DNA of 64,000 nucleotides from Isoetes taiwanensis (taxonomy: Eukaryota; Streptophyta; Lycopodiopsida; Isoetales; Isoetaceae), in contig JAJEKV010000014.1 in assembly GCA_021234155.1 (NCBI GenBank), forward strand, positions 6,527,563 through 6,591,562, read 5' to 3'. Within the stretch, counting starts at the first letter, position 1, and every line of letters starts with the position of its first letter. The notes under the pieces were generated by a model. It did not search any database and was not told where the DNA came from. It saw only the letters and a program-made list of their open reading frames with translations. The translations under genes were made by a program, and so were the position numbers. Below are positions 6,106 through 56,999 of the stretch, one piece after another.

Positions 6106-6205
6106 ATATGTATGCCAATGTGGGAACTCAGAAGAAGCAGAGAGGGCGGTCAACATTTCTAAAAGCCCCAGTGATATCATGGAATGCAATAATTGCAGGA
6201 CATTC
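6106..6205 (+). pseudogene. PPR protein fragment (upstream piece)
   Basis: The sequence reads MYANVG, then (after a frameshift) SEEAERAV, then VISWNAIIAGH. These are the hallmark phrases of plant PLS/DYW-class pentatricopeptide repeat proteins, which bind organelle RNA. The piece is about 100 bp long, is frameshifted, and continues in sense at about 8,890, after a 2.7-kb interruption made of a 279-codon ORF and the second copy of the duplicated segment. It is a dead fragment. Confidence 0.55.
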
Positions 6206-7032
6206 CAACTACTGACAAATATGAAGAAGTTGATCATAGACATGAGGAAACACCATTGATTCAAGGCACAGCTATCAGAAAATCATTGCTAATTCCAGTA
6301 GGTGAACCGAGGTCCTCAATGATTAGTTCGTTGGCGCCTCGCCAGTCAATGCTCGGCCAGCAACCAAGAGCTTCAATTTCCTTAGGTCCACAACCAAGGA
6401 GATCTATTCCTTCTCAAAAAGGTGCTTTTGAAAGGGAGCCTGCTAATGCAAGCCTTTTTCAAGGAGCAGATGTGGATGCACCATCAAGCCCACAATTACA
6501 GGGAAATTATGATCTAGATAGAGAAGTGGCTGCCCCATCAGACCGACGACCAAGCAGGAAGATTCTGCTTCGAGACTCTTCTGAAATGCCACAGTCAAGC
6601 AAAGCTATGGATGCCGCTCATCAAAAGAAAGAAATTTTGAATCAAATTTTGCCTAGACCAAGTATCTCACCTTATAGTCCAAGCCTGCCTAAAGAAGATG
6701 ATGCTGATCGTCAAAGGAAAAAGTCATTGGAATGGATTTTGCCTAGGCCATCTTATCATGTAAGCCTAGGTGCTGAAGGAATGTCCCAATCTAGGCCCGA
6801 CATCGAACCCAGGACCTTCTCCATTGATCCTCCAAGTGGATACAAAATACAACTAGCCGGTAAGGGGCCTGCTTTTTATTCAGATCCTTACAGACGGTTC
6901 AGCTGCCCTCCAACTTGCTTTCGACCAAGTTACTTAACGGCTGAAATGTTGCGTTATATAAAAGCATATCAACATGCAAACTTTGATGCTTTAGATTCAA
7001 ATTCCTCGCATCCTCATTACAAAGCATTTTAA
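6193..7032 (+). CDS. 279-codon ORF, unrecognised Ser/Pro/Arg-rich protein
   Basis: This long open frame runs to a TAA at 7,030 and lies between the two copies of the duplicated segment. It has no good ATG near its start. The frame opens right after a GCAG acceptor-like sequence, so it is probably a 3'-terminal exon. The product is hydrophilic and basic, with repeated Ser/Arg/Pro phrases (RKSLLIP, PRSSMIS, PRRSIPS, RPSRKILLRDSS) and two related segments, KKEILNQILPRPSISPYSP and KKSLEWILPRPSYHVSLG. There are no membrane segments or catalytic motifs that I recognise. It could be the disordered tail of a membrane or regulatory protein. The absence of stops over 840 bp in this decayed neighbourhood suggests that the insertion is recent or under selection. 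Confidence 0.5.
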   Translation: MQDIPTTDKYEEVDHRHEETPLIQGTAIRKSLLIPVGEPRSSMISSLAPRQSMLGQQPRASISLGPQPRRSIPSQKGAFEREPANASLFQGADVDAPSSPQLQGNYDLDREVAAPSDRRPSRKILLRDSSEMPQSSKAMDAAHQKKEILNQILPRPSISPYSPSLPKEDDADRQRKKSLEWILPRPSYHVSLGAEGMSQSRPDIEPRTFSIDPPSGYKIQLAGKGPAFYSDPYRRFSCPPTCFRPSYLTAEMLRYIKAYQHANFDALDSNSSHPHYKAF

Positions 7033-7038
7033 TGGAGA

Positions 7039-8620
7039 GGTCTGGAGAGTTGCTAATGGCAGCATATGAATGCATCAGGGCGCTTCAGATTGCGGTTCAT
7101 TACATCAAAAAGATTGCAGCTCCGGAGGATGACAAGACCCCGAATAGTCTTTCATAAGGTACACGAATAAAAATACGGTGTCATCAAATAAGTTGTGACT
7201 TGATCATTCATGATATCTCCTTGATGTTTTGTGTAGATATGCGATTTGGCGAACAGTCTTGCAATGCCTAATGAGCTTGAGGATTTTTCCCGATGTTCGC
7301 AATGATCTTGTTAAGGTTGCCTGGAGAAGGACTTACACTTTGTCTTTTGTGGCTACAAGAGAATATAAGAATATAGTTATGATTAATCATGTATTGTTCT
7401 TAACAGGGATTGTCTGGTGGATCAATCTAGTTCATGCATGGCGAAGACCATCTTTAAGGAGTCGAAAGCTAAGGACGGCCAACAGTGTAAGCATGCTATT
7501 GCTTTATTTTATGGAAGCTGTGATATAATGTTGCCTTTAATTTATCTGATACATTTGTTTTGTTTTGTTGCTACTCTCTTTAGTTGTCTGATTGGGTACT
7601 TAAGAATTTACAAGCGCAAATCAGTATTGGCAAGAATAAACTACTCAAAGATTGCAAACGAGCCTTTCTGGTACCTTTTGATGCCATTATTATATACTAT
7701 TATTGGGTCCACACACGTAAGGCTACAACAATCCATATCTAAAATGGTGTTATTGCATCTATTGGAGATTATAATAATGGGCTCAAACATGGCCGTTAAC
7801 TCAATAGCGAGCAACCCAGTAGTCTTGGTTCAATACCAGGCCCGTTAAGTCCTTAGATTGTAACATGGCATCAGAGCCAAGGTTGGCTGGTCTTAGGAAT
7901 GTGCAAGTGCATCAAGATAGATAGCTTGAGTGATGTGTTTTAATCAAAGCGGGACATTGGAAAATACGAGATGTTAGCTTAATGTGGCTTGCAAGTTGAA
8001 GAACTCAAGTTTAATACCCAGCCCAGTTCCTAACCAAATTCTACATGCTCAATCACTGTTTGGAGTGACTATTTGCCTAAAATCATGGTGGAGTTTAACC
8101 AGAGTAGGAAAAAGTCATGCCTTATGTTAAGATCTTAAAGTTAATAATGAAATATTCTGACCTGTGCATCTTTTGAGAGTTATTTGCGCCCTTAGCCAGA
8201 ACTTAAGAAAATGCTTGACCTGAAATTATTTCTAAGACGGTCTTGCTTAAGCAAAAGGGTAGGGTTGGGCACATCCATGCACATGGGTTTTCTGACTATT
8301 TCACGTCCATCTTATAAATTGTTCTTTTACTATTACCTCATAATAGAAGGACTGTCTACCTTTTTATTCACATTCAGAGTTTTTATGCTACAGTTTACTT
8401 TGTGTACTGTTTGATAGAGTAAAATTCAACGTGCTTGACAGGATGGAAGTTGGTGACAAGATCTTCTTTACAGTCATGTTTGACATGATCCCTCTTGGCC
8501 ATACTGTTAGGTAAAGGCTATTATGATTTCAGGTGCCTACCAGGATTTTAATCAAGCTAACCAACAAAACATCTTAACATAGTTGTTCTTACGTTTGTGA
8601 TTGGGTTAAGTGGGGAATTA
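7039..8620. repeat. Segmental duplication, copy 2 (1,582 bp)
   Basis: This is the second direct copy of 4,522-6,105, starting 7 bp after the 279-codon ORF ends. The same exon-like pieces recur (YAIWRTVLQCLMSLRIF; DQSSSCMAKTIFKESKAK), as does the TGGCATCAGAGCC site at 7,866. The copies differ by small indels, for example around the GTAAGCATGC motif near 4,970 and 7,488. The borders are not TG..CA and no flanking target duplication is seen, so these are not LTRs. Confidence 0.9.
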
Positions 8621-16064: not shown

Positions 16065-17337
16065 ATGAGCTCATCAGCTTTGGCATCAAAATGGAGACAA
16101 GTGCAAGGAGAAAATCACTGGAAAGGCATGATAGATCCCCTAGATATTGAGCTTCGGAAGGAGCTGATACGCTATGGGGAATTGATCCAGGTGATGTATG
16201 ATTCACTGGACAATGATGTAGAATCAAAATACGCAGGCCTACCTAGGTATGGCAAGAGCAAGCTGTTCGAGGCAGTGGGCCTAAACAATCCAGACGAAGG
16301 GCTAAGCGTGGACTACAACATCACAAGGTATTTCTACGCAACGGCAACGGCAAATGCAGAGGCAACATTTCTGCTAAAATCGATCCACAAGGATGCATGG
16401 GCTAGGCAGAACAACTGGAATGGATACATAGCAGTGGCGGATGACAAGGGCAAGGAATGGCTTGGAAGGAGATATTGTGGTGGTGTTCAGGGGCACCAAG
16501 AGAGACGCTGAATGGGTGGATGACGTCCATCATAAACCCGTCAAGCTTCCTCCTCTCAACCCATCCTCTGAAGCAAGCTCTCTTCTGTCTGCCTTGCATG
16601 ACGATGGCATCCGAGTTGCCGAAGGATGGGTTCTGGTCTATAACTCCAAATCCGACTCTGCCCCATTGGGGAAGCTCAGTGCTCGCGAGCAGGTTCTCGC
16701 CGAGCTTAAACGCCTTCTAGAACAGTATAAGGATGAAGACGTTAGTATTACTGTCATTGGCCATAGCCTTGGCGCTGCTCTTGCTACTCTTTGCGCTTAT
16801 GATATTGCAAATGAAGGGATCAATCAAAGGACCAATTCTAGTGGCCACACAGAAACCATCCCTGTTACTTCCTTTGCATACGCAAGCCCCTGTGTTGGTA
16901 ATCTTTTCTTCAAACAACACGCCGAGAAGCTCCCCGGTCTGCGCATCTTGCGCATTCATAACATTCAAGATTTGATTCCTCTTGCTCCTAGCACACTCCT
17001 GGGTTATATACATGCTGGAGTGGAGAGAAGCTTTGATTATACCATTTCTCCTCACCTCAAGAACGATACTGATATTTGGAAGAAGCATAATCTGGAGGCT
17101 ATTCTTCACATGGTTGCAGGATTTCAGACATCTCTTTCCAGGACTTTCAAGCTGGAAGTTGATAGAGATTATGCCTTGGTCAATAAAAATTCTGATGCCC
17201 TCCAGGATAATCTGCTCATTCCTCCTAATTGGTGGAAGCTCCAACACTTGGGAATGTTGTTTTCCAATGGACGTTGGAGGCTTCCTGAACGATTGCCCGA
17301 GGATCTGCCTTCTATGGACAACCCAGAGTACAACTGA
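16065..17337 (+). CDS. Class-3 lipase, phospholipase A1 (DAD1-like, type II), one frameshift
   Basis: This intronless gene would give about 424 residues if one 2-bp loss is allowed for, the usual length of plant cytosolic PLA1-II enzymes, which hydrolyse the sn-1 acyl ester of glycerolipids. The start MSSSALASKWRQVQGENHW is the family N-terminus (W...G.N.W.G..DPL), with no transit peptide. The nucleophile elbow GHSLGAAL has its Ser codon at 16,765. The likely Asp lies in HNIQDLIP and the His in KKHNLEAILH, completing the triad. FRGTKRDAEW precedes the lipase core. At about 16,466 the frame changes between LGRR and DIVVVFRG where GA appears to be missing, leaving either a recent pseudogene or an assembly indel. 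A decayed inverted paralogue lies at 39,608-41,081. Confidence 0.88.
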
Positions 17338-25771: not shown

Positions 25772-26038
25772 TTGAAGACCCATAATCGAACAGCATATGT
25801 GGTGCCCAAAGAGGAGGATTGCTGCAAAACAAAATGGATCGAATGGTTAAAGAAATTAAAAGATGTGCTTAATGTACCCGATTACCTTGAGGGTGCCGAC
25901 GCCATAGCTCGCCACTTTGATTTTGGGGCGGCAGAAAAGGGCCATGTGCTGCCCTTTTCGTTCGTGCTTTGGCTATGGCAGACAACTGATTTGCTCGGAT
26001 TTGATGGGGCCATGGACTGGATCCTGACCGTCCGATTG
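25772..26038 (+). other. Open frame broken by the retrotransposon insertion
   Basis: The frame from 25,772 (MKTHNRTAYVVPKEEDCCKT, then WIEWLKKLKDVLNVPDYLEG) runs directly into the LTR retrotransposon at 26,039. Whether it was coding is unknown. The target site GATTG lies in a roughly 90-bp unit that occurs twice in tandem after the element (39,233 onwards and about 39,330 onwards, both GATTGCTAGATTAAATC). Confidence 0.25.
26034..26038. repeat. Target-site duplication GATTG (left)
   Basis: GATTG immediately precedes the 5' LTR and recurs at 39,233-39,237 immediately after the 3' LTR. Removing the element restores CCGTCCGATTGCTAGATTAAATC, which matches the neighbouring tandem copy near 39,330. 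Confidence 0.95.
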
Positions 26039-27613
26039 TGTGACGTTCCAGCACAGTATACGGTCCTAGAACGTATACTGTACTGCCTCGTCACGCGTAC
26101 ACGCCACTCCGACCGACGTGTACGCCGACGGATAGCCAGGTAAGTAGCCCTAGGGGCAACTTGCTAGGAATGTTCACATGTTATTAATGTGCACATATGC
26201 ACATTAATGCGGGCACACTTTTCCATGTAGACACTTTTTGCCACCTTGCCATTAATGGCAAGTGGGCCCTTTCCAATTATCCCACATGCCAAAAAGGGAT
26301 AATTGGAAACCCTAGCCCTAAACCCATGTCTATTTAGGGTAGGAAAACCCTAACTTGCTAGTTTTTCGTCCTTAGGGTTTTAGAGCCCTGTTTTGGCTGC
26401 CCCAGGAGCCAAACCGCATCCCGAATCTTTGCCCAAGCGAATGCGCCATCGGTTTCCCTCGAATTGATCATTTCAACCAGGATGGTTGAACTTCAGTCGA
26501 GGAGCCACTTTCGGGGGATCAGAGTTTGGTCAATTTAATAGCTTAAACCGCCTTCTAGTCATAGAACCCGGTAAGTTTAGACTATTAAATTGCCCATAGT
26601 AGCTATCTAGATCTTAGATCTCGGACACTAACTAAAGAACCTAACTCTATGATCTAGATTAGATCTAGTTCTTTAGTTCTTCGGTGATGTATATGGATGA
26701 TGTATCTTTGTGAACTCCTTGTATTGGGAAGGGGGGTAGAGGCCCTAAGGCTTGTAGTTGATGCTCCTAGAGTAGCCTCTCTAGCACACCGGTAGATTCG
26801 GCCTGTGGCACAAGAACCACACACCTCGGTTGTGGGTGAAGGGGCCAGACTGGCTTAGAAAGAGGTTCGTGTTCTGACTCTTGAACGATCCCTATGGTGT
26901 GTTAGTGCTACCAGGGATCATTGTGACTAGGTCTAATGCCTTGCCACTAAGTGCGGGCAAGGCATGGGCTCGACACCCGTGGGGTGGGGTTCACCTTCCA
27001 ATGGGTTCAAGTCGAAATCGGCAAAGGGCCCTCTAGTCACCTTGAGTCAGCATGTAGACCTTTGGAGGGAGTGATCCCTACCTGCCCCATCGGAACTGGG
27101 GAGATGAAACCCAGGAATAGCCCTTTTGGCTATGCATCCCGTGGGCTACGATCAGTCCCAACACTTTTCACCTACTCTTACCGCAAAGTGTGCACGGGGA
27201 GGGGCGGATGGAGTGGACAACCCTATGCCATGTTCATATGCCAGCCAAAGCCATTGCCATGAATTACATGCGCAATGAACTCACGGAGACCCAAGCCGTC
27301 AGTCATCCCCTTGAGTCTGAGCCCTGGGTAAAGCTTCCCATATGTATTGTGCTCACCTTGTTATGCAGATGTGATGGACCACCCTTGGAGGTGGTTATTT
27401 GCTTATGTTATATACTGACATGTATGTTTACGCTTCCGCAGCTAGGTTGGCCCTGAGGGAGACAGGGTAGAATGACACCTTCACTCTTCCCACTGGGACT
27501 CGTTACGGGTGCAGTGATGTGTGGAGGGCCCTATATCAGTGTGGAGCTGGTATGGGGGGAGAACTCCTGTTTGTATACGGTGAGGGCACCGTATACGAGT
27601 AGGGGACGTCAGA
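26039..27613 (+). repeat. 5' LTR
   Basis: About 1,575 bp, starting TGTGACGTTCCAGC. Its end reads GGGGACGTCAGA, where the 3' LTR has GGGGACGTCACA. The first 350 bp are almost identical to the 3' LTR, but differences cluster around 26,400-26,520 and in other short patches. ORFs inside the LTR have no coding signature. A TATTTAGGG stretch near 26,330 is the only weak TATA candidate. Confidence 0.92.
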
Positions 27614-27614
27614 G

Positions 27615-27626
27615 TGGTATCAGAGC
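27615..27626 (+). promoter_or_regulatory. Primer-binding site, initiator tRNA-Met
   Basis: TGGTATCAGAGC, one base after the 5' LTR, is complementary to the 3' end of plant initiator tRNA-Met, the standard minus-strand primer for Ty3 and Ty1 elements. Confidence 0.93.
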
Positions 27627-27814
27627 AATGTTCTTGGAGACCAAGAGCAAAGCACTGGCCATGTTCCAGTAGTACTGACTTGATAGGATCCTCAAGCCTC
27701 GAAAAGTGGGAAAATTTTTCTCATTTTTGTAGTTATGCTAAGCTAGTAACAATTAAGCGAATTGGAATTTGGTAAGATTAAAAAGAATAAGCCCAAAATT
27801 TTCCAAGTGAGATG

Positions 27815-27881
27815 GTCTCACAGCTCGCGCCTGGTCGCAGAACTAAAATTTAGTTTTTGAGCGAGGCGCAAGCTGTGAGAC
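27815..27881. repeat. 67-bp hairpin H1
   Basis: GTCTCACAGCTCGCGCC and GGCGCAAGCTGTGAGAC form a stem of 17 bp with one mismatch, around an inner AACTAAA/TTTAGTT stem. It is the first of four copies in the leader, 396 bp upstream of the TATA-like box of the histone cassette (position 28,178). Confidence 0.9.
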
Positions 27882-28004
27882 ATCGAGCCAAAAACACCAA
27901 AACATGATGAATTTGAGAAAAGTAATGTGGTAAGGCTAGTTCTAAGGCAGGAATTAATTAGAATAGCATGTTTTAATTACCTAAATAACCTAGAAATGTA
28001 CGAG

Positions 28005-28072
28005 ATCTCACAGCATTTCGGCGCCGGTCCAGAACTAAATATTAGTTTTGGAGCGAGGCATGTTTTTGAGAC
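28005..28072. repeat. 67-bp hairpin H2 (degenerate)
   Basis: This is a decayed copy of the hairpin: ATCTCACAGC at the left, AACTAAATATTAGTTTT in the loop, GAGCGAGGC retained, and TTGAGAC at the right. The outer stem has mutated. It pairs with H1 in front of the first cassette. Confidence 0.75.
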
Positions 28073-28177
28073 CATTAGGTAGAGAAAGTCTGAAATAAGT
28101 GTAGATTTTAATTAAATAGGTGCCTTGGCATGATAAATTGAGCAACTTCGAACTTTGACCTAAAAAATTTTCCAAGC

Positions 28178-28231
28178 TATAAATAGATGTAAACCCCCTC
28201 ATTTTTCTCGTCCCACCCTAGAAATCCGCTC
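28178..28231 (+). promoter_or_regulatory. TATA-box leader of the H3 cassette
   Basis: TATAAATA at 28,178-28,185 is followed by CCCCCTCATTT, then CACCCTAGAAATCCGCTC ending at 28,231. The same ordered set (TATAAATA, CCCCTCATTT, CACCCTACAAATCCGCTC) recurs at 30,146-30,192 before the second cassette, and an ATG follows the TATA box by 109 and 121 bp respectively. It therefore looks like a duplicated internal promoter with its 5' UTR, which is an inference. Confidence 0.6.
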
Positions 28232-28286
28232 TTCCCCACTTAGGCGATCTTTGGGCGCTTTTACCCGATTGACGATCCGTAAAAGC

Positions 28287-29560
28287 ATGGCCCGAACCAA
28301 ACAGACCGCCCAGAAGCGCCGCCAGCGAAAACCACCACCAGCGCCCGCGGAGGCTGAGATCATTCGACAGATGCTTCATGAGAGGCTCGCGAAAAAGGGG
28401 TCGCTCGCCGGACGACGAAGAGCGAGACACGCCCGATCCGATCGACGTCTTCAACCAAACAGTGGAACAGATTTAGGCAACATCACCAACCTCCATGGAC
28501 GAGGAGACAAGGGAGGTATATGAGGAAATAGAGCGGGAGATCCGGGGACAGAAAGAGCGTAAGACCATTCTGGCGCAGCCCGAGAGATCCTCGAAAGAAG
28601 AAGAGGTGTGACAGTCCGGAGCCGCCAGAGAAGCGGACCTTAGAAGGTTCATTAGGAAATATGAACGTCGGGAGAAGAGGAAGGAAGACAAAAAGAGGAA
28701 AAGGGAGGAAGAGGAACAGAAAGCAGCAGAAGAGAAAAAGAAGGCGAAGGGGAAGTTCGTGGATAGCACAAGGAAGCTGAAGGACTGCCCGCCGAGGAAG
28801 AGGCCTAACCCCAAGATCGTCATCAAGGAGCGGCAAGCCGACGAACCTCCGAACTCCTCCGACGACTCTTCCGATGGGGACTTCAACCCTAATGCTGCGC
28901 AGTGGAAGCTCTTCTAAGCACCGGACGACGAGCGTAGTGCCCGACCCAGCCAAGACTGAAAGCAACCCCAAGACCAAGTGCGTAAACCCCCGAAAATACC
29001 GGCATGGGATAGAAAGAAGCAGCCCTAACCTGCCTGTGGAAGCTTACGCCACCCCATTGGGTAAAGATATACGAAAGAAAGATGAGGGAGCACGAGGCTT
29101 ATATGAAGAAATGGGAAGCCTACAGCAAGTACTATAAAGAAAACAGGGTCAGGATCATCGAGGGAGGGCGGCCGACAAAGCAGCAGACCTTGAAGCCGCC
29201 ACCACCGAAGCCCAAGGTCCCCAAGCCACCACCCAAGAAGAAGGTAGACAGAAGGAGGTGGAGAGGAGAGCTACGAGGGAGATTAGGCACTTCCAAATAA
29301 GCAGCTATGGACTTCTAATCCCCCGCGCCCCTTTTGCTCTGTTAGTCACGAGAAGTCACGCAGCCTACAGATGACGGACTTCGAGGTCCGCGGACGAGGC
29401 GCTGCTAGCAATGCAAGAAGCGGCCGAGGCAAAGATAGTGCAACATTTTGAAGATTCAACACTGCACACTGTCCACGCCAAGCGGGTAACCCTAATGCGA
29501 CAAGACATGAGTCTTGCGACCCGCATAAAGGGAGAGAACGCCTTAGAACGTTTTTTGTAA
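28287..29560 (+). pseudogene. Histone H3-like gene inside the retrotransposon
   Basis: The ATG at 28,287 opens MARTKQTAQKRRQRKPPP. The first eight residues are those of histone H3 (ARTKQTA after Met). At the other end, 29,270-29,541 encodes an H3 histone fold: ATREIRHFQ.S..LLI, PFALLV, then [44 protein letters not shown], then LERFL and a TAA at 29,558. Between tail and fold is a long charged insert absent from normal H3: an Asp/Glu- and Lys-rich coiled region (EEIEREIRGQKERK; EKRKEDKKRKREEEEQ), then a Pro/Lys stretch (KPKVPKPPPKKK). The cassette spans about 424 codons against 136 in canonical H3. This copy has shifts between three frames and stops at 28,474 (TAG), 28,609 (TGA) and 29,372 (TGA). 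In an active element it could encode a chromatin-incorporated or decoy H3, but the function is unknown. Confidence 0.85.
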
Positions 29561-29691
29561 ATAATTGAAAATTTTGTATTATAGAGCAATTTTGTGTACT
29601 TAATTGCATAAACTTGATTAATTAGAGCAAGTTAATAAGTTTTAGCTTTTATTGCAGCGAAATAGGACAATTGCGGGCCGAAACACGTGAT

Positions 29692-29758
29692 GTCTCACAG
29701 CTCGCGCCTGGTCGCAAAACTAAATTTTAGTTTTGAAGCGAGGCGCAAGCTGTGAGAC
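29692..29758. repeat. 67-bp hairpin H3
   Basis: Same sequence as H1 with only a few changes: GTCTCACAGCTCGCGCC, inner AAAACTAAATTTTAGTTTT, then GGCGCAAGCTGTGAGAC. It lies 132 bp after the stop codon of the histone cassette. Confidence 0.92.
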
Positions 29759-29889
29759 CTCGCCCAAACTTGACCAAAGCAACTCCAAGTCGACTAAATA
29801 AGGGGTCAATTTCCCCAATTGATGAGCCCATCATCCTTACACCATTAGTTTACCCAAATTAGACACCTTTTGATCGAAATGAGAGTGAT

Positions 29890-29956
29890 GTCTCACAGCT
29901 CGCGCCTGGTCAAAGAACTAAAAGTTAGTTTTGGAGCGAGGCGCAAGCTGTGAGAC
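29890..29956. repeat. 67-bp hairpin H4
   Basis: Fourth copy, nearly identical to H1 and the third copy, with inner AACTAAAAGTTAGTTTT. The spacing from the third copy (198 bp, start to start) is close to the 190-bp spacing of the first pair, so the hairpin pair was duplicated as a unit. Confidence 0.92.
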
Positions 29957-30145
29957 CTCTTACCATTTCTTTACCAGAACGTGTCCAAATCATCTTCAAC
30001 CTGTTGGATAGTATCCTTGAGGTAATTTAGCCTGTTCAAACATCTCATTTAGTCTTCAAATTGCCATTTTTACCTTAGATAGACTAGAATTACCCAACCC
30101 CAGGAATTTCCCAAGTCACCCAAAAATTAGGGTTTTCCCCTTTTC

Positions 30146-30192
30146 TATAAATAGACCCCTCATTTCTCAGATAGCACCCTACAAATCCGCTC
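30146..30192 (+). promoter_or_regulatory. TATA-box leader of the second cassette
   Basis: TATAAATAGACCCCTCATTT, then CACCCTACAAATCCGCTC ending at 30,192, parallels the leader at 28,178-28,231. The ATG of the next reading frame is at 30,267. Confidence 0.6.
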
Positions 30193-30266
30193 CTGCCCTT
30201 CTAGCCGATTTCTCAACTCCCTGAGGCGCTCTTGCAACCGTTGTTACCCTCTCCTGCAATTAGCCA

Positions 30267-31823
30267 ATGGCAACCTCGACTTTTCGCGGATGGTGCGGTA
30301 CAAATAATCATGTTTCTTGAGGCGACGTCGACCAAATCTTCCATATCTTCAGGAAGGAGGTAGATGTCCAGGCAACCTTGCACGCAACCCCAGCTTACAG
30401 TAGAGTCTTGTCTGAGTTCCAAGCTAGGGTAGAACCAGCGCTAGTACAGCTCCCCCCTTGTGTAGGCTACTTTGTTCCTAGACAGTCCCTGCAAGCAGCA
30501 TTAGACGACGTCCCGAACATCGCCAAATACCTAACAAACAAAGCGCAAATAAGACACTGAAACCAATGGTCCTAACCGGCCAATAGGACCAAGTATTTCT
30601 CTTTCAACACTGCCTTGGCAATCTTTCTCACCCACCGTGCCGAGAACACCGTGGGGGAAACCTCCATTCCCCCCATGGACGTAGACCCATTAGCCATAGC
30701 AGCAGAACAACGGCTCCTCACACAGTATGAACGGGGAGCGAGGAAGGGAAGGAAGAAGACTTCGGATGAACAGAATCGAAGAAGAGGAAGACTATGTCGA
30801 AGCTTCGACCAGCCGGAGGAGGAGGCGACAAAGCGAGCAGAGTGGCAAGACTTCGAAAGAAGCCGGCAAACTCTCAGAGTCACGCCACCCCTTGGGTTAG
30901 GCATCACAAGCCTAGCTCCCATTATTGTCGAAGGCGAGGAGTTTCTGCTCCTAAGCGACATCCAAAACCTCCCGGAGTGCAGGGAAAGGGAGTACAGACC
31001 TGAAGAGTTGCTGCACCAACTCCGAAGAACGGACCTGGACGACTTCATCATCCGAGGAGCATCTGACTTCCCACTCCAAGTAAGAGAAGCCGACACTTAC
31101 ACGGGAGAGTCGACCTCCGACATCCAAGCCTACAGCAGCATCAGGCAGATTATGGAGGCGGACCAGGCAGCAAATCAACTACCGACGGAGGAAGAGTTCC
31201 TTGCCCTACAGGAACAGATGGGGATCCGTTATGCGACCTCGAACATCCTAACGGCAAGCTCTTCAGCAACACCTCCCCCGGAGAGAAGAGGCGAATTCGA
31301 CCTAAGGAGGGCTTCAGCAACAGTCAGAGACTACAGGGAGCTCACCACGGTGGAGGTTGATGACTTTGCGCGCATTACGAGGCTGATACCGAAAGTGGCC
31401 GAGGACCCGTCCCGCAACGACAGGTCATTGCGTTATTACCTCTCCCTGCTGATGGATGGTAGATTAGCGGTAATTCACCGCAAGTTCACCCCTAGAGGCG
31501 AGGAAGGAGTATCGATGCTGATTGCACTCTCAGGATTCGGCCGGCATGCGCGGTTGCCCCTCAACACCGAGTATGCCATTCTGGTGAAGAGAGCAAGCTT
31601 TTCGACGCGTCTTCGACTTCGCCATACCTTACAAAGCGGCCAGCAAGATCTGGCGATGACAAAGGCTTTTATACCTCCGAATCAGCGAATAGAAGACTTG
31701 GCGAGAGCTTTACAGGGGGGATCTTCAGCCAATGTCCTTAGGAACTTGGGCCATTCAGTGGGAACAGCCCAAGTGAAAAAGTTCCTAGAGGATAACCCAT
31801 CTTACCGGCGGCAGCAAGAATGA
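30267..31823 (+). pseudogene. Second leader gene (about 518 codons), unknown protein
   Basis: A single frame runs from the ATG at 30,267 (MATSTFRGWCGTNNHVS) to the TGA at 31,821, broken only by TGA at 30,318, TGA at 30,558 and TAA at 30,573. After that it is open for 415 codons. The N-terminal 100 residues are moderately hydrophobic (SRVLSEFQARVEPALVQLPP). The centre is Arg/Glu-rich (RLLTQYERGARKGRKKTSDE). The C-terminal third looks globular (SLRYYLSLLMDGRLAVIHRK, FTPRGEEGVSMLIALSGFG). No protease, RT, integrase, zinc-finger or histone motif is seen. A homologous piece with the same FxPRGxExxxxLxAL core lies at 54,494-54,754. The position before gag recalls the extra ORF1 of Ogre elements, but I see no similarity that can be named. 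Confidence 0.8.
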
Positions 31824-31892
31824 TTAGCAGTAGTTGTAATTTTGTATTAGCATAATATAAAATATGAATAGAATTTCGTTTGCTCTATAAAT

Positions 31893-31935
31893 GTTTTGTT
31901 GATGTATCTTGTGTCCCCAACCACGCCAATAAACA
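31893..31935 (+). promoter_or_regulatory. AT-rich spacer before gag with TATA-like and AATAAA motifs
   Basis: Between the second cassette and gag, the sequence is AT-rich, with GCTCTATAAATG at about 31,890 and CCAATAAACATAAAG at about 31,928. It could hold a poly(A) signal for the upstream cassette or a further start region for gag. Neither is proved by sequence alone. Confidence 0.3.
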
Positions 31936-31974
31936 TAAAGAATGCAAGAAAACAAGGAAAACTAACCATATAGC

Positions 31975-34902
31975 TATGAACCACTTGTGTATGCAGCTAG
32001 AAGCCTAAACGCAGGAGAACGTCAACTGCGAGAACTTATGGAAGAACAGAGTCCGCCTAGGCCACGCCCGGCAAGGAACCTGCTTGAAGAATTTGGACAA
32101 ATGACCCTAGAAGAAGAAATATCGCAAATGAGGACGGACCTTGAGCAGATAAAGGCTTTGCTAGCCGCACAAGCAGGAGCAGGTTCGGGGGGTAACGCTC
32201 AACTGCCGCAAGCATCAGCTCGGAGAATAGGAAGAGACAAGAAGAGGGGCAAGAGAGGAAGGTCCCCCAGTTCGGACTCCTCCGACTCAAGCCCAGATTC
32301 AGACTCCGATTCCGAGGAAGAAGAAGAGCAGAACCAAGACCGAACAGATGGAAGGCAGAGGAACACTCAGGACGGACGACAAAGGGACACAAGAACCTCT
32401 GACTACCAGAAGAAAGTGGACTCTGCATTGGGAAATGTTTGGAAGGCCAGGAAGCTCGAGCAATTCTCAGGCGAGAATAGGTCAGGCATGGAGGCGGAAG
32501 CTTGGCTTGACGAGATGAGTGAATATGGCAACGCTTATGGTATGAAGGATAAGGATAAAGGCGGTGGTAGCAACGCAAACCCGAAAGGAGCAAAGACGAT
32601 TTGGTGGAAGGGTTATGCCAAAGCTCATGGCTTAAGCAGGATGCTTGCGTGTTCGTGAAGTTTGCTAAAGCCTTCAAAGCGCCATTACGCCCAAGAGAGC
32701 ACAAGTCCAAAGATGATGCAAAGAAGCTCTACGGTGTTGCGCTAAAGGCAACAAGTCAAGTCAGAAAATATACGAGGAGTTCATGAGGCCGAGGTCAGAT
32801 GTGCAAAGTTAGGTGAGAAGCATGCAGTAGAAAGCTACATTGAAGGTCTGAATGAGGAGATCCGCAAGCTTGTAAGGAGAACAGTATCAGAAGCGGAGTC
32901 CAAGGCAATAAGCTTGCAAGGAACGGGACCTCAGAGTAGCGGGCAGAGGCAGCAGTATTATCAGGACAAAGGCAAGGCAACGGGCCGTTTTAGCCCGAGG
33001 ACAGCCAGCCCAGGACCAGCTAGAGCCCCATATAGTAGCAATCAGGGGAAGCAGCAGGAGAAGAAGCAGGTGTCCTTTAAAGATAAGCAGGAAGGGTCAA
33101 ACTACTCCAAAGCAGTGCGATCCTTCTTGCAGGCCATGCCCAAGGAGAAGAGACAGGAGTGCATAGAAAAGCAGCTCTGCTTCAGGTGCTTCCAGCCAGG
33201 CCATAGAACAGCGAACTGCCCATACGTTATGAGTGCGGCACTAGCAGAGTTGGGGGATTGGGACACTCTGTCCGACGACGACGGCGAGGAAGCCCGCGAC
33301 TACATTCAGGGTGAGTGTCATATCTTTGCCGCAATAGATACAGAGCAAGCGGAGAGCCAGTATAAGGTAATTTCCACAGTGGGAAAGGCCAAGGCCAAGT
33401 CATTTATAGTCCTGATAGATTCGGGAAGTAGCCATAACTTCGCATCCCCCAGAATGGCCCAAATGTTGAAGTTGAAACCATTAAAGTCAAAGCCAAGGCC
33501 CGTTGTCTTAGCAAGTGGAGCAGTAAGGCAGACGGCAGGTAAGAGAATCAACTTCGACATCGACTTGCCAGGGATTAAAATTCAGATGGGGGCAGAAGTA
33601 ATGGGCATTGGGAAATACGACTTGATCATAGGTATGGAGTACCTTGGACCAGCAGGGGCCATCATTGATTGTGGAAAGCGGAAAGTGACCTTCCCAACAC
33701 CCGACGGCAAGATCATTGAGATCACAGGTAAAGAAGTTGTCCCCATCATGCAGTGTATGTCTTCTAAACGGCTGTTCAAGTGTATCAAGAGTGAGCAGGT
33801 GGCATACATCTTCAAGCTTGAGATTGAAGAGCCGGAGTCAGAAGAGAGTGAAGAAGATAAAGTGCTCAACAAGCTGCCCAAGCAGATAGCTAGCTTGATC
33901 ACGGAGTTCCATGAGCTCTTCCCGGATGAGATCAAGCAGCTCCCTCCTTATAGGGGAGTCGAATGCGAGATAGCACTCGAACCGGGAACAAAGCCGACAA
34001 GCAAGGCTCCATATAGAATGACAACGCAAGAGTTGACGGAGCTGAAGAAGCAGTTGCAGGAGCTGCTCGACCTAGGTTTCATTAGACCTAGTGTCTCGCC
34101 ATTTGGAGCGCCCATTCTTTTTGTCAAGAAGAAAGATGGATCTCTGAGGATGTGCATAGACTATAGACAGTTGAATAAGCACACCATCAAGAACAAGTAT
34201 GCGCTTCCAAGATCAGACGACTTGATGGATCAGCTTCAAGGAGCAAAGATCTTCTCCAAAATCGACTTAAGGTCAGGCTATCATCAGATCCGGATAAAGG
34301 AAGAAGATATCCATAAAACCGCCTTCAGGACGCGGTATGGGCACTATGAGTTTACGGTAATGCCTTTCGGCTTATCAAATGCCCCTGCAACGTTCATGAG
34401 GCTCATGAACGATATCTTCAGGGAGTTCCTAGACACCTTTGTGATTGTTTTCTTTGATGACATTTTGGTGTATAGCAAATCCCTTGAAGAGCATGTACAA
34501 CACTTGAGAAGAGTGCTGGAGAAGTTGAAGAGGCACCAATTGTACGCCAAGTTGTCGAAGTGCCACTTCGCAACGGAGAAGGTGGAATACCTTGGTCATG
34601 TGATTTCAGCAGAAGGCATCTCGACGGACCCCGCCAAGATTGAAGCAAATGATTCAAAGGGCCTACGCCCAAGAATGTGCATGAGGTCGGTTTTTCTGCC
34701 AGCGGGGTACTACAGAAATTCGTGGAAGAACTTTGCTAAGATAGCGGCCCCATTAACGGACCTGACAAGAGCAGAGAAGGTGAAAGATTGGGCAGAGCAT
34801 TGGCACAAGAAAGCCCAAAAGGGGTTTGAATTGTTGAAAGAAGCTTTGACGACAGCCCCTGTCTTGACCCCTCGCCGACCCGTGAGAAAGATAAGCTTGT
34901 AG
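31975..34902 (+). pseudogene. gag-protease-reverse transcriptase region
   Basis: Gag starts near 31,975, with a first in-frame ATG at about 32,038. It runs through an Asp/Glu/Ser-rich segment and KLEQFSGENRSGMEAEAWLDEM, then shifts frame near 32,620 and again near 32,786. From there one frame runs to 34,902. It contains the zinc knuckle [14 protein letters not shown] (33,178-33,219), the protease motif [11 protein letters not shown] (about 33,408-33,440), and RT with [42 protein letters not shown] and the catalytic FFDDILVYS (about 34,449). Gag, protease and RT share one frame. Products would package and copy the element RNA. The frame ends before RNase H because of frameshifts. Confidence 0.93.
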
Positions 34903-36200
34903 CAACAGATGCAAGTAAGATAGCTACGAGGGCAAAGCTTATGCAGAAGAGCGTGTGGTAGCGCATGACTCGTGAAGATGAACGACGCCGAGACGCCGCT
35001 ACCCAACGCATCGACCGAAATTGCTTGCGGTTGTCGGGGCACTAAGAATATGGAGGCATTACCTCTTAGGAAGGAAGTTCCAATTGATACCGACCATCGA
35101 GCCTCCAAGATGTATTCACGCAACCACACCTTAATCTGAGGCAAATGAGGTGGATGGAGTTCCTCGAGGAATATGACTTTGATATAGTCTACAAGCCGGG
35201 AAGCTCAATGTGGTAGCAGATGCTTTCGAGGCATCCCCGACAATTAGAGTGCATTACAATGCAATTTCGACGCTCTCCAAATGACTTTGGTAAGAAGATT
35301 GAAGAGTCCTTGCCAACGGATGTGGATTTCGTGAGAAAGATGGGCAAGCCTCTCTAGGGAGGCTAGAAATGGATAAAAGAGCGGAAGCCTTCAAGCATTA
35401 TAAGAAGGAGGGCAACCTGTTATATCATAAGGACAAGTTGTGCGCACGAAATCATCGTGAGTAAGGAAATTGATCCTCCATGACACGCGACAAATGGCCC
35501 AATAGCTGGCCATGCGGGATTCATGAAAACATATTTCAAAGTCGCAGCAGCAGCTATTATTGGCCAGAATGAAGAAGCGTGTAGCTCGCTACATCAAGGA
35601 ATGTCGGCTATGCCGCCAGACAAAGGCGGAGCAGCCTTCGGGACCGGGGCATTAGAGCCATTAGCGGTGCCAAACGCTAAGTGGGAGGTGATTAGCATGG
35701 ATTTCATCACAGACTCCCAAGGACCGCCGAGGGAAAGACGCTTTGATGGTAGTAGTCGACAAGTTGTCGAAAATGGCACATTTTGTGCCTTGCGTGACCA
35801 CGATACGGCTATGGATACAAATGGGCTCTTCACCAAAGAGATCTTTAGGCTTCATGGCATGCCAAGGAGATCATCTCCCACATGGATCCGAAATTCATGA
35901 GCGCCTTTTGGCGGGGACCTCTTTACGACAATCCGCACGGCTATCCATGAGCACGGCATATCATCCTCGACGGATGGCCAAACGGAGCGGACCAACAGAT
36001 TTTAGAGGACATGCTACTTAAACTATGTCCGAATAAGCAAGGTATGTGGGAAGAATTTATTCACTTGGTGGAGTTTGCATACAATAGCACCAAGCAGAAT
36101 CATCCCAAATGTCGCCGTTTATGATCAATTACGGCTATCGCTTTTAACTCCGCATTAATTTGGCACAACCCCGCGTCAAAAGTGGAAGTCTCAAGCAGCC
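34895..36200 (+). pseudogene. RNase H and integrase region, heavily frameshifted
   Basis: RNase H begins with VATDASKIA (about 34,898) and continues as IWRHYLLGRKFQLI and YKPGKLNVVADAF (about 35,190-35,225). The integrase zinc-binding region surrounds AGHAGFMKT and IKECRLCRQTKAEQ (about 35,510-35,640). The catalytic core is recognisable as WEVISMDFITD (first Asp), MVVVDKLSKMAHFVPC, STAYHP and FAYNSTKQNHP up to about 36,110. Single-base indels change the frame roughly every 50-200 bp, more densely than in the RT region. This suggests decay or poor local consensus quality. Confidence 0.88.
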
Positions 36201-36479
36201 AGATGTTGGCTGATATGCGGCAGCTTTGTGGAAGAGGTTCGAGGGTATCTCGCTAGCGCAAGAAGTCGACAAAAGAGCATCGCCGACAAGCATCGAGCGA
36301 AAGAAGAGAGTTCAAAGTTGGAGATGATGTTTGGCTCAAGATCAAGGTGAAGCAAGCCGGCTCGGGATTGGGAATTGCAAGAAGCTTGCTCCAAGGTGGG
36401 CTGGACCTTCGTAATAGTCGAGAGTAGGTAATCAAGCCTACAAGCTAGACTTGCCAAAGACACCTAAAGATTCATAAGG

Positions 36480-36800
36480 TCTTCCACGTGAGTTTGTTAA
36501 AGAAGCACACTCCAAACCCGCATCGAAGTCTTGGACACTCCAACGTTGTTGAAAATGACGAGGAGGAACCGAGATAGTTCCGCACTGATTCTTGATAAAG
36601 CTTTCAAGAAAACGAGGAGATCAGAATTCCTCCAATACTTGGTCAAGTGGAAACACTTACCGCTGGAAGACGCCACATGGGTACTTAAGAAAGATTTAGT
36701 AAAGCAAGCACCCACGGTTTATGGAGCAATGGGACGGCAAGGTCATCTCCTCAAGAAATCGCTCGTGCATGTCGATTTGTGTAGATTAATTCTATGTATA
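36480..36800 (+). pseudogene. Chromodomain-like C-terminus of pol
   Basis: The sequence before it reads VFHVSLLKKHTP, the usual end of the chromoviral integrase. Then ILDKAFKKTRRSEFLQYLV, KWKHLPLEDATWV and KKDLVKQAPTVYG follow. The YLVKWK-LP-EDATWE core is the chromodomain signature of Ty3 chromoviruses, where the domain is thought to direct integration to modified histone tails. The N-terminal aromatic residue of the cage cannot be assigned with confidence. Confidence 0.75.
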
Positions 36801-36879
36801 GTTAAGATTAATCTCCACGATGCAACCTATGCTAGGTATGGGTCGCATGCGTGTTACCAATGATGGGACCACTACGGTG

Positions 36880-37656
36880 ATCTCTAGGGCGGTGTAATGT
36901 CAATGTAGGCATGACCGCTGCTTCCGGCTTAAAGTGGAAGGTAGATTAGAAAGTCTACTTCTGTCCCACGGAAGTAGACGACCTAGAGAGAAAGGAGGTC
37001 ATGAAGGAATGCACTGATAGGAAAAGCACCTCTAGCCCCATATATGCTTTGATAGGAGGAATCAGGCCTTCACGCCCCATATACGGGAAGGACCTATCCT
37101 CCACGCTGGGCAACTAGGGTGTAGGCATGAGCGGCATATAGGCACATAGGCGCTGTCTCCACGGCCATAATGGAAGATTCACCCTCTTCCTACGCCGGGA
37201 GATTAGCCATGCATCCATGTAGATAGGTGGGGTGGTCACCATATAACCAAAATTTATTAAATAATTAAATGGTACTAACGTAGTGTCGACCTGCAGGCCA
37301 ATAGAGCGCTCCGGAGGGCAAGGAGGTCGAGCTACGAAGACTTGCAACACAAATTTTGTTGGAATGTGTTGCAAGGAACGAAGAGTACCTCGAACAATAA
37401 TTATGGATAGGAAATGTTGAAATTTTGTCTAACTTAATGTCATAATAACTGAGATAGCGAATAACTTGTTTAATGATGTTATGAATTGATAAGTATTCCA
37501 TAGTATGATGACGTGATAATGTTCTAAAAATATTACCTTAGGGTAATCTTGATAAATGTATAACTATTATATTGTATGCATCACGTTGATTGCAGATTGC
37601 AGATTAGGAAGATCCCAAGGTGGGGAGACCCACGATGCTGCGGACAGCATCATTTC
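36880..37656 (+). other. Non-coding 3' tail of the element
   Basis: About 780 bp between pol and the polypurine tract. No supported gene. It holds short inverted phrases (GGCGTGTAATGTCAATGTAGGCATGACC-like repeats near 36,893 and 37,118; AGTAGACGACC; CCCCATATA twice near 37,036 and 37,075). Confidence 0.5.
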
Positions 37657-37669
37657 AAGGTGGGGAGAA
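37657..37669 (+). promoter_or_regulatory. Polypurine tract
   Basis: AAGGTGGGGAGAA directly precedes the 3' LTR and would prime plus-strand synthesis. The same CAAGGTGGGGAGA occurs 40 bp upstream at 37,617-37,629, so the tract is duplicated. Confidence 0.9.
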
Positions 37670-39232
37670 TGTGACGTTCCAGCACAGTATACGGTCCTAG
37701 AACGTATACTGTACTGCCTCGTCACGCGTACACGCCACTCCGACCGACGTGTACGCCGACGGATAGCCAGGTAAGTAGCCCTAGGGGCAACTTGCTAGGA
37801 ATGTTCACATGTTATTAATGTGCACATATGCACATTAATGTGGGCACACTTTTCCATGTAGACACTTTTTGCCACCTTGCCATTAATGGCAAGTGGGCCC
37901 TTTCCAATTATCCCACATGCCAAAAAGGGATAATTGGAAACCCTAGCCCTAAACCCATGTCTATTTAGGGTAGGAAAACCCTAACTTGCTAGTTTTTCGT
38001 CCTTAGGGTTTTAGAGCCCTGTTTTGGCTGCCCCAGGAGCCAAAACCGCATCCCAGACGCTGCCCAAGCGAATTGCGCCATCAGTTTCCCTGAATTCGAT
38101 CAGCTCAGCAGGATGGTTGAACTCAGGTCAGGAGGAGCCACTCAGGGATCAGGTATTTGGTCAATTTAATAGCTTAAACCGTCTTCTAGTCATAGAACCA
38201 GTAAGTTTAGACTATTAAATTGCCCATAGTAGCTATCTAGATCTTAGATCTCGGACACTAACTAAAGAACCTAACTCTATGATCTAGATTAGATCTAGTT
38301 CTTTAGTTCTTCGGTGATGTATATGGATGATGTATCTTTGTGAACTCCTTGTATTGGGAAGGGGGGTAGAGGCCCTAAGGCTTGTAGTTGATGCTCCTAG
38401 AGTAGCCTCTCTAGCACCGCGGTAGATTCGCCCAGGCACAAGAACCACACCGGTTGTGGGTGAAGGGGCCAGGGACCGGGCTTAGAAAGAGATTCGTGTT
38501 CTGACTCTTGAACGATCCCTATGGTGTGTTAGTGCTACCAGGGATCATTGTGACTAGGTCTAATGCCTTGCCACTGAGTGCGGGCAAGGCATGGGCTCGA
38601 CACCCGGGGGTGGGTTCACCTTCCAATGGGTTCAAGTCGAATCTGGGCGTGGCCCTCTAGTCACCTTGAGTCAGCATGTAGACCTCTGGAGGGAGTGATC
38701 CCTACCTGCCCCATCGGAACTGGGGAGATGAAACCCAGGAATAGCCCTTTTGGCTATGCATCCGGCGGGCTACAGTCAGGTCCCAACACTTTTCAGCCTA
38801 CTACGCAAAGTGTGCAATGAGGGGCGGATGGAGTGGACAACCCTATGCCATGTTCATATGCCAGCCAAAGCCATTGCCATGAATTCTGTCTGCAATGAAC
38901 TCTGGAGACCCAAGCCGTCAGTCATCCCCTTGAGTCTGAGCCCTGGGTAAAGCTTCCCATATGTATTGTGCTCACCTTGTTATGCAGATGTGATGGACCA
39001 CCCTTGGAGGTGGTTATGTGCTTATGTTATATACTGACATGTATGTTTACGCTTCCGCAGCTAGGTTGGCCCTGAGGGAGACAGGGTAGAATGACACCTT
39101 CACTCTTCCCACTGGGACTCGTTACGGGTGCAGTGATGTGTGGAGGGCCCTATATCAGTGTGGAGCTGGTATGGGGGGAGAACTCCTGTTTGTATACGGT
39201 GAGGGCACCGTATGCGAGTAGGGGACGTCACA
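37670..39232 (+). repeat. 3' LTR
   Basis: About 1,563 bp, TGTGACGTTCC to GGGGACGTCACA. Alignment with the 5' LTR is close, with patchy small indels (for example 38,050-38,150 and 38,420-38,480). The target duplication GATTG follows at 39,233-39,237. Confidence 0.93.
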
Positions 39233-39607
39233 GATTGCTAGATTAAATCGTGACCACCCAAATTAGGTCTCCATTGAAGACATGCACTATAATTTTATAT
39301 TCGGACCTGATGTAGCCTATGGGCTAGATCCTGACTGTCCGATTGCTAGATTAAATCACGATCGTCAAAATTAGGTCTCCATTGAAGACACACGCTATAA
39401 TCTTATAGTGATGAGAGCTCAAGCTAGATAGGGACGATATGAGAGGCCCAAGATGGATAAGTCCAAACAACCACGAGTATGACTATTGTTTAGTTCTTGA
39501 GGGAGTAAAGGAAAGATGTTTCAAAGCTTGCAAAGGGAAATAATTGATTTGAATTAAAGAGCATGAAGCAATGGCAGTTTTCGTGAGAGAAATCTATGAC
39601 AAAGCAA

Positions 39608-41081
39608 TCAGTTGTACTCTGGATTGTCTATTGAAGGCATATCTTCAGACCTCCAACGTCCATTTGAAAACTGAAGTTTCCACCAATTTGTGAGAATGAG
39701 CAGATCATCGTTGAGGGAATCGGATTTTTTATTAATTAAAGCATTGTCTCTATCAACTTCCATCTTGAAACTCTTGGAGTGGGACGCTGAAATCCTGCAA
39801 CCATATGAAGAATAGCCTATAGATTATGCTTCTTCCAAATATCAGTATCATTCTTGAGGTGAGGAGAAATGGTATAATCAAAGCTTATTTTCATACCACA
39901 ATGTTTTTAACCCAAGAGTTTGGCAGGAGCAAGAGGAATTAAATCTTGCATGTTATGATTGTGCAAGCTGCATAGGCCACAAAGCTGCTCAGAGCAGGTT
40001 TTGGCAGAAGTAATCTTCTCCGGCAGAAGATTCCAGGGCGCACATTATCAGTTGTCGCGAATGATGGTTTGCGCCCTGAAATCTTCTATCAGAGAAGATT
40101 CTTTGACTGAAAAAAGGAGGAGCATCAAATTTTTGGCTGCATTTCAGTGTTTCCAATGACGAAATTCGACGAGGATTTAACAAGAAATTTCTTTTTGTAA
40201 AAATACCCTAAAAAGGACTGAAATTTGATGGTCCCCTTTTTTTTGAAGAGTAAATTACCAATACGGGAGTTTGTATAAGAAAAGGAAGTAATAGGGATGG
40301 TTTCTATATCTCCACTAGAATTGGTCCTTTTGTTGAACCCTTCATTTGCACTATCATAGACATACAGAGTAGCAAGGGCAGCGCCAAGGCTATGGCCTAT
40401 GACAATAATACTAATGTCTTCAGCTTTATACTCTTCTAACAAGTGTTTAAGCTCTACCAAAATTTGCTCTCGAGCACTCAATTGACCAATGGTGCAGTTT
40501 GAAGCTTGGAATTGTCGAGAAGCAGCTCGTCTTCAGCAATTCTGATACCATCATCGTCATCCTCAGCCTCATTGTCATCCAAGGGCGAGCTTGTTATATC
40601 AGACTGACTGGTTATGCTGAAAGGGGAAAGCTGACTGGTGTAAAAAGAGCATCGTCAACCACCACCACAATATCTCTTCTTCCAAGCTGTTCCTTTCCTC
40701 TATCATCTGCCACTGCTATGTACCCATTCTAGTCGTTTTCCTTTGCCCATGCATCTTTGTGCATGGATTTTAGCAGAACTTCGCCAGCACATTTGCCGTA
40801 GCTGTTGCATAGAAATACCTTGTGATTTCGTAGTTCATGCTCAGCCCTTGCTCCGGATTGTTCAGCCCCACTTTCTCAAACAACTTGCTCTTGCCATATC
40901 TTGGAAGGCCTGCGTATTCTGATACTGGGTCATTATCAAGTGAATCATACATTGTCTGGATGAAATCCCCATAACGGATCAGCTCCTTCTGAAGCTCAAG
41001 ATCTAGGGGATCTGTCATGTCTTTCCAGTGATTTTCTCCCTGCACTTGTATCCATTCTGATGCAAGAGCCGATGAGCTCAT
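39608..41081 (-). pseudogene. Inverted, decayed paralogue of the phospholipase A1 gene
   Basis: The minus strand starts MSSSALASEWIQVQGENHW at 41,081 and matches the gene at 16,065-17,337 through to the same C-terminus (DNPEYN, TGA at 39,608-39,610). The first 96 codons are open. The region then carries frameshifts, and the FRGTKRDAEW segment is replaced by unrelated or rearranged sequence (about 40,500-40,690). IVIGHSLGAALATL is retained at about 40,395-40,435. An insertion of about 260 bp (39,985-40,245) splits the segment before the catalytic Asp. It is a pseudogene. Confidence 0.88.
40012..40100. repeat. Foldback within an insertion in the lipase pseudogene
   Basis: AATCTTCTCCGGCAGAAGAT and CCAGGGCGCAC at the left are complementary to GTTTGCGCCCTG and AAATCTTCTATCAGAGAAGAT at the right, with a loop of about 23 bp. 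Each arm is itself a small palindrome. It forms part of the approximately 260-bp insert and may be its core. Confidence 0.7.
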
Positions 41082-54193: not shown

Positions 54194-54493
54194 ACCATGG
54201 TTGTTATTTAAAGTTATACATCATGATGTCCTTTATATGTTAATTCTTGTTAATCATAAAAGAAATCAAGTTGAAACTCAACTTATAAGTTAACGATGAA
54301 TTATAATAATTGGTACATCAACATACAATTGGAAGATTGAAATTTTATATAGAAGATAAATAATAGTACATGAAATCTTGTTACATATTAATACATAGAA
54401 GGGGATAAGGGTTTATCGTCGAGAGCCCTTTATAGACTTGAAGTCCTTCACGTCCTTGAGTTGAAGATCCTTGTCGACGTTGCATAGAATATT

Positions 54494-56600: not shown

Positions 56601-56999
56601 TAAATCTAAGCTCTCTATAGCTTCATTATAATTAGTTGGTATTTCTAATTCTAATACAGTCATAAGAGTTGGTATTACCTGATCACTTTCTTCAATTCCT
56701 TCATGTCATGTGCTTCTTTCAATTTCTTCATGTCCTGTGCTTCTCTCAGTTGTATCCCTCCTCATACTTCTTCCAATCTCATCCCTTCCATACTGTGTTG
56801 TATCGAAAGATATCCCTTCTTTAAGTAATTCTGCTTCGGTTCATCTCTTACGTCGCGTTACTTCAGGAATTGGTTATATTTCTGCATCACCATATTCTGT
56901 GTGATCTACAAGTTCAGTTTGTTCTTCTTCCTCTTCTGTTTGACTGATATCACCTTTTTCTTAATCCTTACCTGCATCTTGATCTTGCTTACACAAGGC

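Follow-up and report, generated by a model that had tools for sequence, protein, structure and literature searches.

The window, by which we mean the whole 64,000-nucleotide stretch that was analysed, contains a Ty3/chromovirus element of 13.2 kb (26039-39232) that houses an H3-like cassette. The features of the element are given below by coordinates and strand, with the evidence for each in brackets.

26034..26038, no strand: target-site duplication GATTG, left copy, with the right copy at 39233-39237 (read from the flanks; holds if the LTR end is CGTCACA/CGTCAGA)
26039..27613, +: 5' LTR, TGTGACG...CGTCAGA (94.8% identity to the 3' LTR, 1587 BLAST columns)
27615..27626, +: primer binding site TGGTATCAGAGC (sequence directly after the 5' LTR)
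27815..27884, +: hairpin palindrome 1, ahead of the H3 cassette (RNA MFE -44.2 kcal/mol, z -7.0)
28006..28059, +: degenerate hairpin 2, ahead of the H3 cassette (z -4.6; 84% to the other copies, 56 columns)
28177..28250, +: TATA-like CTATAAATAGA and leader, resembling 30145-30209 (72% over 72 columns)
28287..29560, +: ORF1, a broken H3-like gene (5' extra ORF) with tail MARTKQTAQK, charged insert, H3 fold and stop TAA (translation, Pfam, phmmer, codon-usage scan)
28287..28400, +: N-terminal tail of H3 type with a basic stretch; its right boundary is approximate (9/10 H3 start residues)
28401..29263, +: charged insert, partly coding-like, in shifted frames (codon-usage scores reach 9.1, against a shuffled 95% limit of 2.2 and a noncoding control maximum of 3.4)
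29264..29557, +: H3 histone fold with one in-frame TGA (PF00125 E 7.4e-14; model pLDDT 83)
29692..29761, +: hairpin palindrome 3, ahead of ORF2 (z -9.3)
29890..29959, +: hairpin palindrome 4, ahead of ORF2 (z -7.3)
30145..30215, +: second CTATAAATAGA and leader (10-mer search of the window)
30267..31823, +: ORF2, the second extra gene, in a single frame with three stops in its first part (40% identical to P0104, 501 aa, over the full length with no frame change)
31966..32658, +: gag, first part (our own assignment from the sequence; nothing significant in Pfam)
32746..34902, +: zinc knuckle (weak), protease, reverse transcriptase and RNase H start (weak) (Pfam RVT_1 E 1.7e-41, RVP_2 E 1.2e-8)
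36501..36860, +: chromodomain, end of pol (PF00385 E 1.2e-8; aligns to Chd1 chromodomains)
37657..37669, +: polypurine tract AAGGTGGGGAGAA (purine run ahead of the 3' LTR)
37670..39232, +: 3' LTR, end CGTCACA (BLAST and LTR alignment)

A chromovirus with two extra genes ahead of gag

Protease and reverse transcriptase lie at 32746-34902 and a chromodomain at 36501-36860, which identifies the element as a Ty3-superfamily chromovirus. No hAT domain was found in the element frames submitted to Pfam; LTRs, a reverse transcriptase and a chromodomain are present instead. This anatomy and the H3 homology of the cassette are nearly certain. The BLAST alignment of the LTR pair (94.8% identity) contains 49 mismatches and 21 gap openings, and a global MAFFT alignment of slightly wider pieces contains 88 mismatches and 11 gap runs (K2P 0.059). 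The TG..CA ends and the 5-bp target-site duplication depend on the 3' LTR end CGTCACA, which in the 5' copy now reads CGTCAGA. We take the primer binding site TGGTATCAGAGC to be of the initiator-Met tRNA type. Ahead of the chromodomain the sequence is broken (35.4-36.5 kb), and two pieces of it gave no integrase core match in Pfam. The chromodomain reads LVKWKHL in the phmmer alignment to Chd1, and its third cage residue, compared with HP1, is presumably not aromatic. A non-aromatic residue at this position would fit type II chromodomains as described in PMC6317226 (excerpt).

The initial annotation had set the H3-like cassette between the primer site (27615) and gag (31966 on) of a Ty3 element. 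This placement was right, and ORF2 (30267-31823), absent from that annotation, lies in the same interval. ORF1 spans about 424 codons and is broken; ORF2 has an open stretch of 415 codons, in line with the sense ORFs of at least 250 codons that lie upstream of gag-pol in plant chromoviruses (eORF-5'F). The 501-aa ORF2 homologue P0104 is carried on a 2-kb assembly contig. ORF2 itself had no match in Pfam, PDB or PHROG, and its structure prediction (pLDDT 33) was of no use.

Four near-palindromes lie within 27815-29959, two per extra gene, three of about 70 bases and one degenerate. Candidate roles for them are protein-binding sites, insulators or small insertions. The 10-mers CTATAAATAG and TATAAATAGA of CTATAAATAGA occur just at 28177 and 30145 in the window, with both strands searched. 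We read the CTATAAATAGA/hairpin/leader modules as two putative promoters, one per extra gene. Among plants, Grande is reportedly an earlier example of an extra gene driven by a promoter of its own.

Farther along the window, the minus strand holds a 151-column match to a third ORF2 relative (54889-54440), with a related LTR and a primer site close by. The second related element fragment (52690-54907, minus strand) holds the end of the ORF2 relative (54907-54440) and an LTR matching at 64% over 653 columns, including the primer site. By our own reading of the sequence, a copia-like fragment lies upstream of it at about 55526-56900.

The H3-like cassette

The frame at 28287-28523 begins MARTKQTAQKRRQRKPPPAPAEAE, and the translation from 28287 is MARTKQTAQKRRQRKPPP. 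The H3 start MARTKQTARK is matched here by MARTKQTAQK at 9 of 10 residues, and the best in six shuffled windows was 5-6 of 10. The fold occupies a single frame of 98 codons with one in-frame TGA. It matched the Pfam family PF00125 Histone (E 7.4e-14), and its best match among solved structures (phmmer, PDB chains) was histone H3.3 (E 4.7e-16). In the AlphaFold model (mean pLDDT 83), helices at 2-15, 22-35, 40-71 and 79-89 follow the alphaN-alpha1-alpha2-alpha3 order of H3. A Foldseek search with this model returned 317 PDB matches at E <=0.001; the best 50 of the 317 were nucleosome/chromatin entries, with TM scores by query length of just 0.55-0.59. The H3-like start and full-length H3 fold described in the initial annotation were both upheld.

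The same annotation had placed an acidic/basic insert of about 300 codons between tail and fold. An insert of about 290 codons is present and charged (28% K+R and 24% D+E in one piece, 31% K+R in another), but it is open solely in pieces of differing frames and the gene is broken. We trained a codon-usage model on the element's own ORF2, gag and pol, and scanned the cassette in 90-base windows. The shuffled 95% limit was 2.2, yet 3 of 22 noncoding control windows lay above it, reaching 3.4. Eleven cassette windows exceeded 3.4: eight in one frame at 28425-28874 (up to 9.1) and three in two other frames at 29145-29324. Together with the tail, these windows amount to at least three frame changes. 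The damage in ORF1 thus amounts to at least three frame changes and at least two stops within coding-like stretches. Tail windows scored at most 2.2, within the shuffled limit. In the frame of the fold, the scores were 5.2 at the window over its start and then 1.5, -2.2, 0.8, 0.5 and -3.2. The codon test gives tail and fold no support, and the case for both rests on homology.

Directly before the fold, RRWRGE in another frame resembles RWRPGT of CENH3s such as P0028, and MTDFEVR, in another frame within the fold, resembles TDLRF of H3, so some frame changes may lie near or inside the fold. We infer that the cassette was formerly one gene of about 424 codons and is now broken.

Probable past selection on the fold and the case for capture

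For the conservation panel, 114 of 116 H3-family matches (P0069 and P0094 left out) were aligned with the fold and weighted, giving an effective number of 37.9. The fold keeps 32 of the 36 columns that are at least 90% uniform in the panel, and 16 of the 53 other columns (Fisher p 2.3e-8). If decay had ignored conservation, 19 of the 36 conserved columns would be expected to be kept. Panel members themselves average 97% in conserved columns and 55% in the others. The conserved positions altered in the fold are L48T, R69L, C110H and R128T. The panel was picked by similarity to the fold, and the test therefore leans towards conservation; the contrast is large even so, arguing for past purifying selection on the fold. 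The initial proposal is supported in that the tail start and the fold were kept, the middle is new, and the fold shows a selective signal.

The fold is identical to the canonical-looking fold P0090 at 44 of 89 positions. Judged by structural contact lists, it keeps 10 of the 11 positions in the H3-H3 bundle, which are conserved in almost every H3, and 5 of the 9 that contact DNA. Pairing thus seems to have survived better than DNA binding. In a neutral simulation to 54% identity, 35% of 2000 runs left at most one stop in 98 codons. Such a count is not rare under neutrality (P 0.35), and the number of stops was dropped as an argument for selection. Neutrality would also predict indels in the fold, about 34 at the gap/mismatch ratio of the LTR BLAST alignment and about 10 at the MAFFT ratio, the rate being rough. 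Missing indels would be more telling than stops, with compensating frame changes inside the fold possible. We consider it probable that the H3-like gene functioned in this element family and was under selection as part of it.

A one-off capture would instead have copied a host H3-like gene or pseudogene into a single element by template switching, and the gene would never have had a role for the element. We regard this as rather unlikely. In its favour, neither a second cassette in the window nor the same protein among candidates of suitable length came to light: tblastn searches of the complete window with the fold and two relatives found this locus alone, a larger H3 panel over 39.3-64 kb gave chance-level matches only (E 0.11 to 0.80), and 15 of 278 candidates of 232-740 aa matched at E 1e-4, none of them more than 52% identical. 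The initial annotation had looked to a second copy of the cassette in the genome as a check, and the window yielded none. Plant LTR elements are also known to take up host gene pieces (PMC7264820, excerpt). Against capture, the divergence of the fold with conserved positions kept needs a long selected history, and the promoter-like module that ORF1 shares with ORF2 links the cassette with the rest of the element.

Since plant H3 hardly varies, identity well above 55% would be expected after a recent capture. The simplest form, a recent host H3 pseudogene, was ruled out by identities of at most 55% to the database matches; the divergence argument leaves room for a host gene of the same layout that had already diverged before a recent capture.

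Fourteen of the 15 long-protein matches (P0105-P0118) form a separate long-tailed H3 family with a long insert and a near-canonical fold. The 14 clusters hold 111 member sequences, all from ENA assemblies, and the full-length members (337-348 aa) start like MVRTKQTERK. They resemble the protein of the element in their start, MV(R/K)TKQ..RK in full-length members, their long insert and their terminal H3 fold, but differ in that the fold is close to canonical H3 and the insert is another one. Possibly this family is another case of an H3 carried by a mobile element. Scans of viral contigs and genome contigs gave no relative of the queries. With P0007 as query, one viral contig had an H3 relative at 42%.

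Possible roles, ancestry and known systems

We favour, with a probability of about 0.5, the reading of the element as a decayed plant chromovirus copy carrying two 5' extra genes, of which the first encoded an H3 variant or mimic acting on chromatin. The protein of this first gene would have been H3-like and about 420 residues long, beginning as H3 does (ARTKQTA-K), continuing with a long charged insert and ending in a complete H3 fold. Each extra gene would have been transcribed from its own promoter. The protein was presumably nuclear and may have paired with H4 and with itself through the kept helices. Its action on chromatin could have been that of a nucleosome component, on the element's DNA or at insertion sites, or that of a decoy drawing off H3 chaperones and H3K4 readers. 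Selection would have kept the fold while the element was active, and the gene would have broken in this copy later.

Conservation of ORF2 in an independent sequence (P0104) and in the second related element in the window supports this reading, and the single known copy of the cassette, which is broken, counts against it. Large 5' extra ORFs, predicted to be nuclear, occur in Tekay chromoviruses (PMC11728184, excerpt), and we counted this for the same explanation. That the gene product acted as a chromatin component or decoy through its H3 fold is about an even proposition, and of the two routes we give the variant histone somewhat better odds than the decoy.

On the decoy route alone, the H3-like protein would never have been in nucleosomes, and would have weakened silencing of the element by tying up H3 chaperones, H4, or H3K4 readers and writers. 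The kept ARTKQTA start and self-pairing face, the changes at the DNA-contact residues R63, R69 and R72 (by the same contact lists) and the long charged insert are consistent with this. However, P at position 63 is also present in plant CENH3s, which do enter nucleosomes, and we consider a pure decoy unlikely.

Descent from CENH3, with a protein that served to aim the element at centromeric chromatin or to get it tolerated there, was also weighed. Matches to the H3 family, reaching E 9.4e-17, bore out the histone-database check proposed in the initial annotation, but the accompanying H3/CENH3 tree did not settle between the two. In the protein search, 101 of 165 candidates matched the fold at E <=1e-10, none more than 55% identical. 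The best database match was a plant CENH3 (Quercus; 53%, E 9.4e-17), and P0007, an H3 with a normal tail, was 55% identical to the fold. Plant CENH3s among the top matches, together with the chromovirus type, suggest a land plant as host. Pairwise identities of the fold were 47/86, 46/91 and 48/89. The first reading as CENH3, taken from the match list, was not settled by trees or profiles.

The plant CENH3 profile beat the H3 profile by 7.7 bits for the fold, a score between the two classes: when controls were left out in turn, true CENH3s (5 of 20) scored +26.8 to +65.6 bits, far above the fold, and H3s (4 of 15) -36.6 to -59.9. One of 20 other non-member sequences reached +0.3 on this CENH3-minus-H3 scale, and the others -5.3 to -42.2. 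The LLIP.APF motif of the fold is common to plant CENH3, as descent would have it, and P0007 also reads LLIPRAPF. Loop 1 of the fold is one codon longer than in H3 in the alignment, and a stop and a doubtful frame fall there. A quick tree (117 rows) and a careful tree (56 rows chosen from those) both joined the fold with P0007 (SH-aLRT 91 in the quick tree and 94/88 in the careful one, neither of them starred). In them the fold falls outside the clade of plant CENH3s, and its branch is very long, at 1.3-1.4 changes per column. Holding the fold with plant CENH3 was not rejected by the AU test (p 0.387). The start ARTKQTA is H3-like, and taken together we consider CENH3 descent with such a centromeric role unlikely. 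P0007, the nearest tree neighbour, has a normal tail but reads IPRAPFA, EAAEAKMV and LVTRIS.

A more elaborate scheme, in which the element encodes an H3- or CENH3-derived variant laid down in nucleosomes and its integrase chromodomain reads H3-type tails, is improbable; if true, the writer and reader of an insertion landmark would travel together in one mobile element. Chance resemblance of the frames, to which the broken state of ORF1 might point, has a negligible probability and is ruled out by the Pfam (7.4e-14) and PDB (4.7e-16) E-values and the tail match of 9/10 against 5-6/10 in six shuffles.

The initial annotation knew of no described retrotransposon with such a gene. None with an H3 gene appeared among the literature matches listed, which lie mostly outside subscription journals and leave the domain list of survey PMC6317226 (excerpt) uncovered. 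However, H3-like genes are known in a mobile element of another kind: a hAT DNA transposon of Pyrenophora tritici-repentis carries H3L genes, with ESTs reported (PMC3538342, excerpt). That transposon shares with the present element its mobility and an H3-like gene whose tail and globular domain are both of H3 type; it differs as a fungal DNA transposon with terminal inverted repeats and 26 very similar copies in the reference genome (PMC3538342, excerpt).

Tekay 5' extra ORFs resemble ORF1 in lying ahead of gag in a chromodomain Ty3 element and in encoding about 400 aa, largely disordered and predicted to be nuclear. The sunflower Tekay ORF differs in having no similarity to known domains and a structure likened to double-stranded-RNA-binding proteins; the word histone is absent from that paper (PMC11728184). 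Orchid Ty3 elements with an AlkB-type RNA-demethylase gene likewise acquired and retained an additional ORF whose domain is recognisably of host type, but that domain is another one, the family is diversified and activity was shown in vitro (PMC9289625, excerpt). The word histone is also absent from a 2026 review of gene capture by plant elements (PMC13317346) and from a review on extra ORFs that appeared in 2020 (PMC7264820). The H3 of the element has the fold and key blocks in common with plant CENH3 and canonical H3, and the ARTKQTA start with H3; it differs from both by its identity of at most 55%, its insert of about 290 codons, one added residue between alphaN and alpha1, and added C-terminal residues.

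In a survey of plant elements, extra ORFs occurred in 3372 elements of Ty3/gypsy type, in 314 groups, and 5' extra ORFs of plant chromoviruses are covered as well (PMC6317226, excerpt). Only 21.4% of the extra-ORF proteins match some domain there; most extra genes of plant retrotransposons have no known domain match and no known role. A recognisable H3 tail and fold offers a concrete, testable chromatin function for such a gene. With it, an element copied through RNA joins the sole DNA transposon with an H3-like gene among the literature matches listed. Intact copies, if they exist, would reveal whether histones of its own serve selfish DNA in countering silencing or in targeting.

Elsewhere in the window, direct repeats at 4522-5634 and 7039-8149, about 2.5 kb apart and 96-98% identical in the listed pieces, flank a 279-aa frame (6193-7032) with no Pfam match; they represent either a small LTR element or a tandem duplication. 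A class-3 lipase frame (PF01764) lies at 16432-17337, and its 16678-17127 part has an inverted partial copy (82-85%) at 39787-40478, just outside the 3' LTR of the element.
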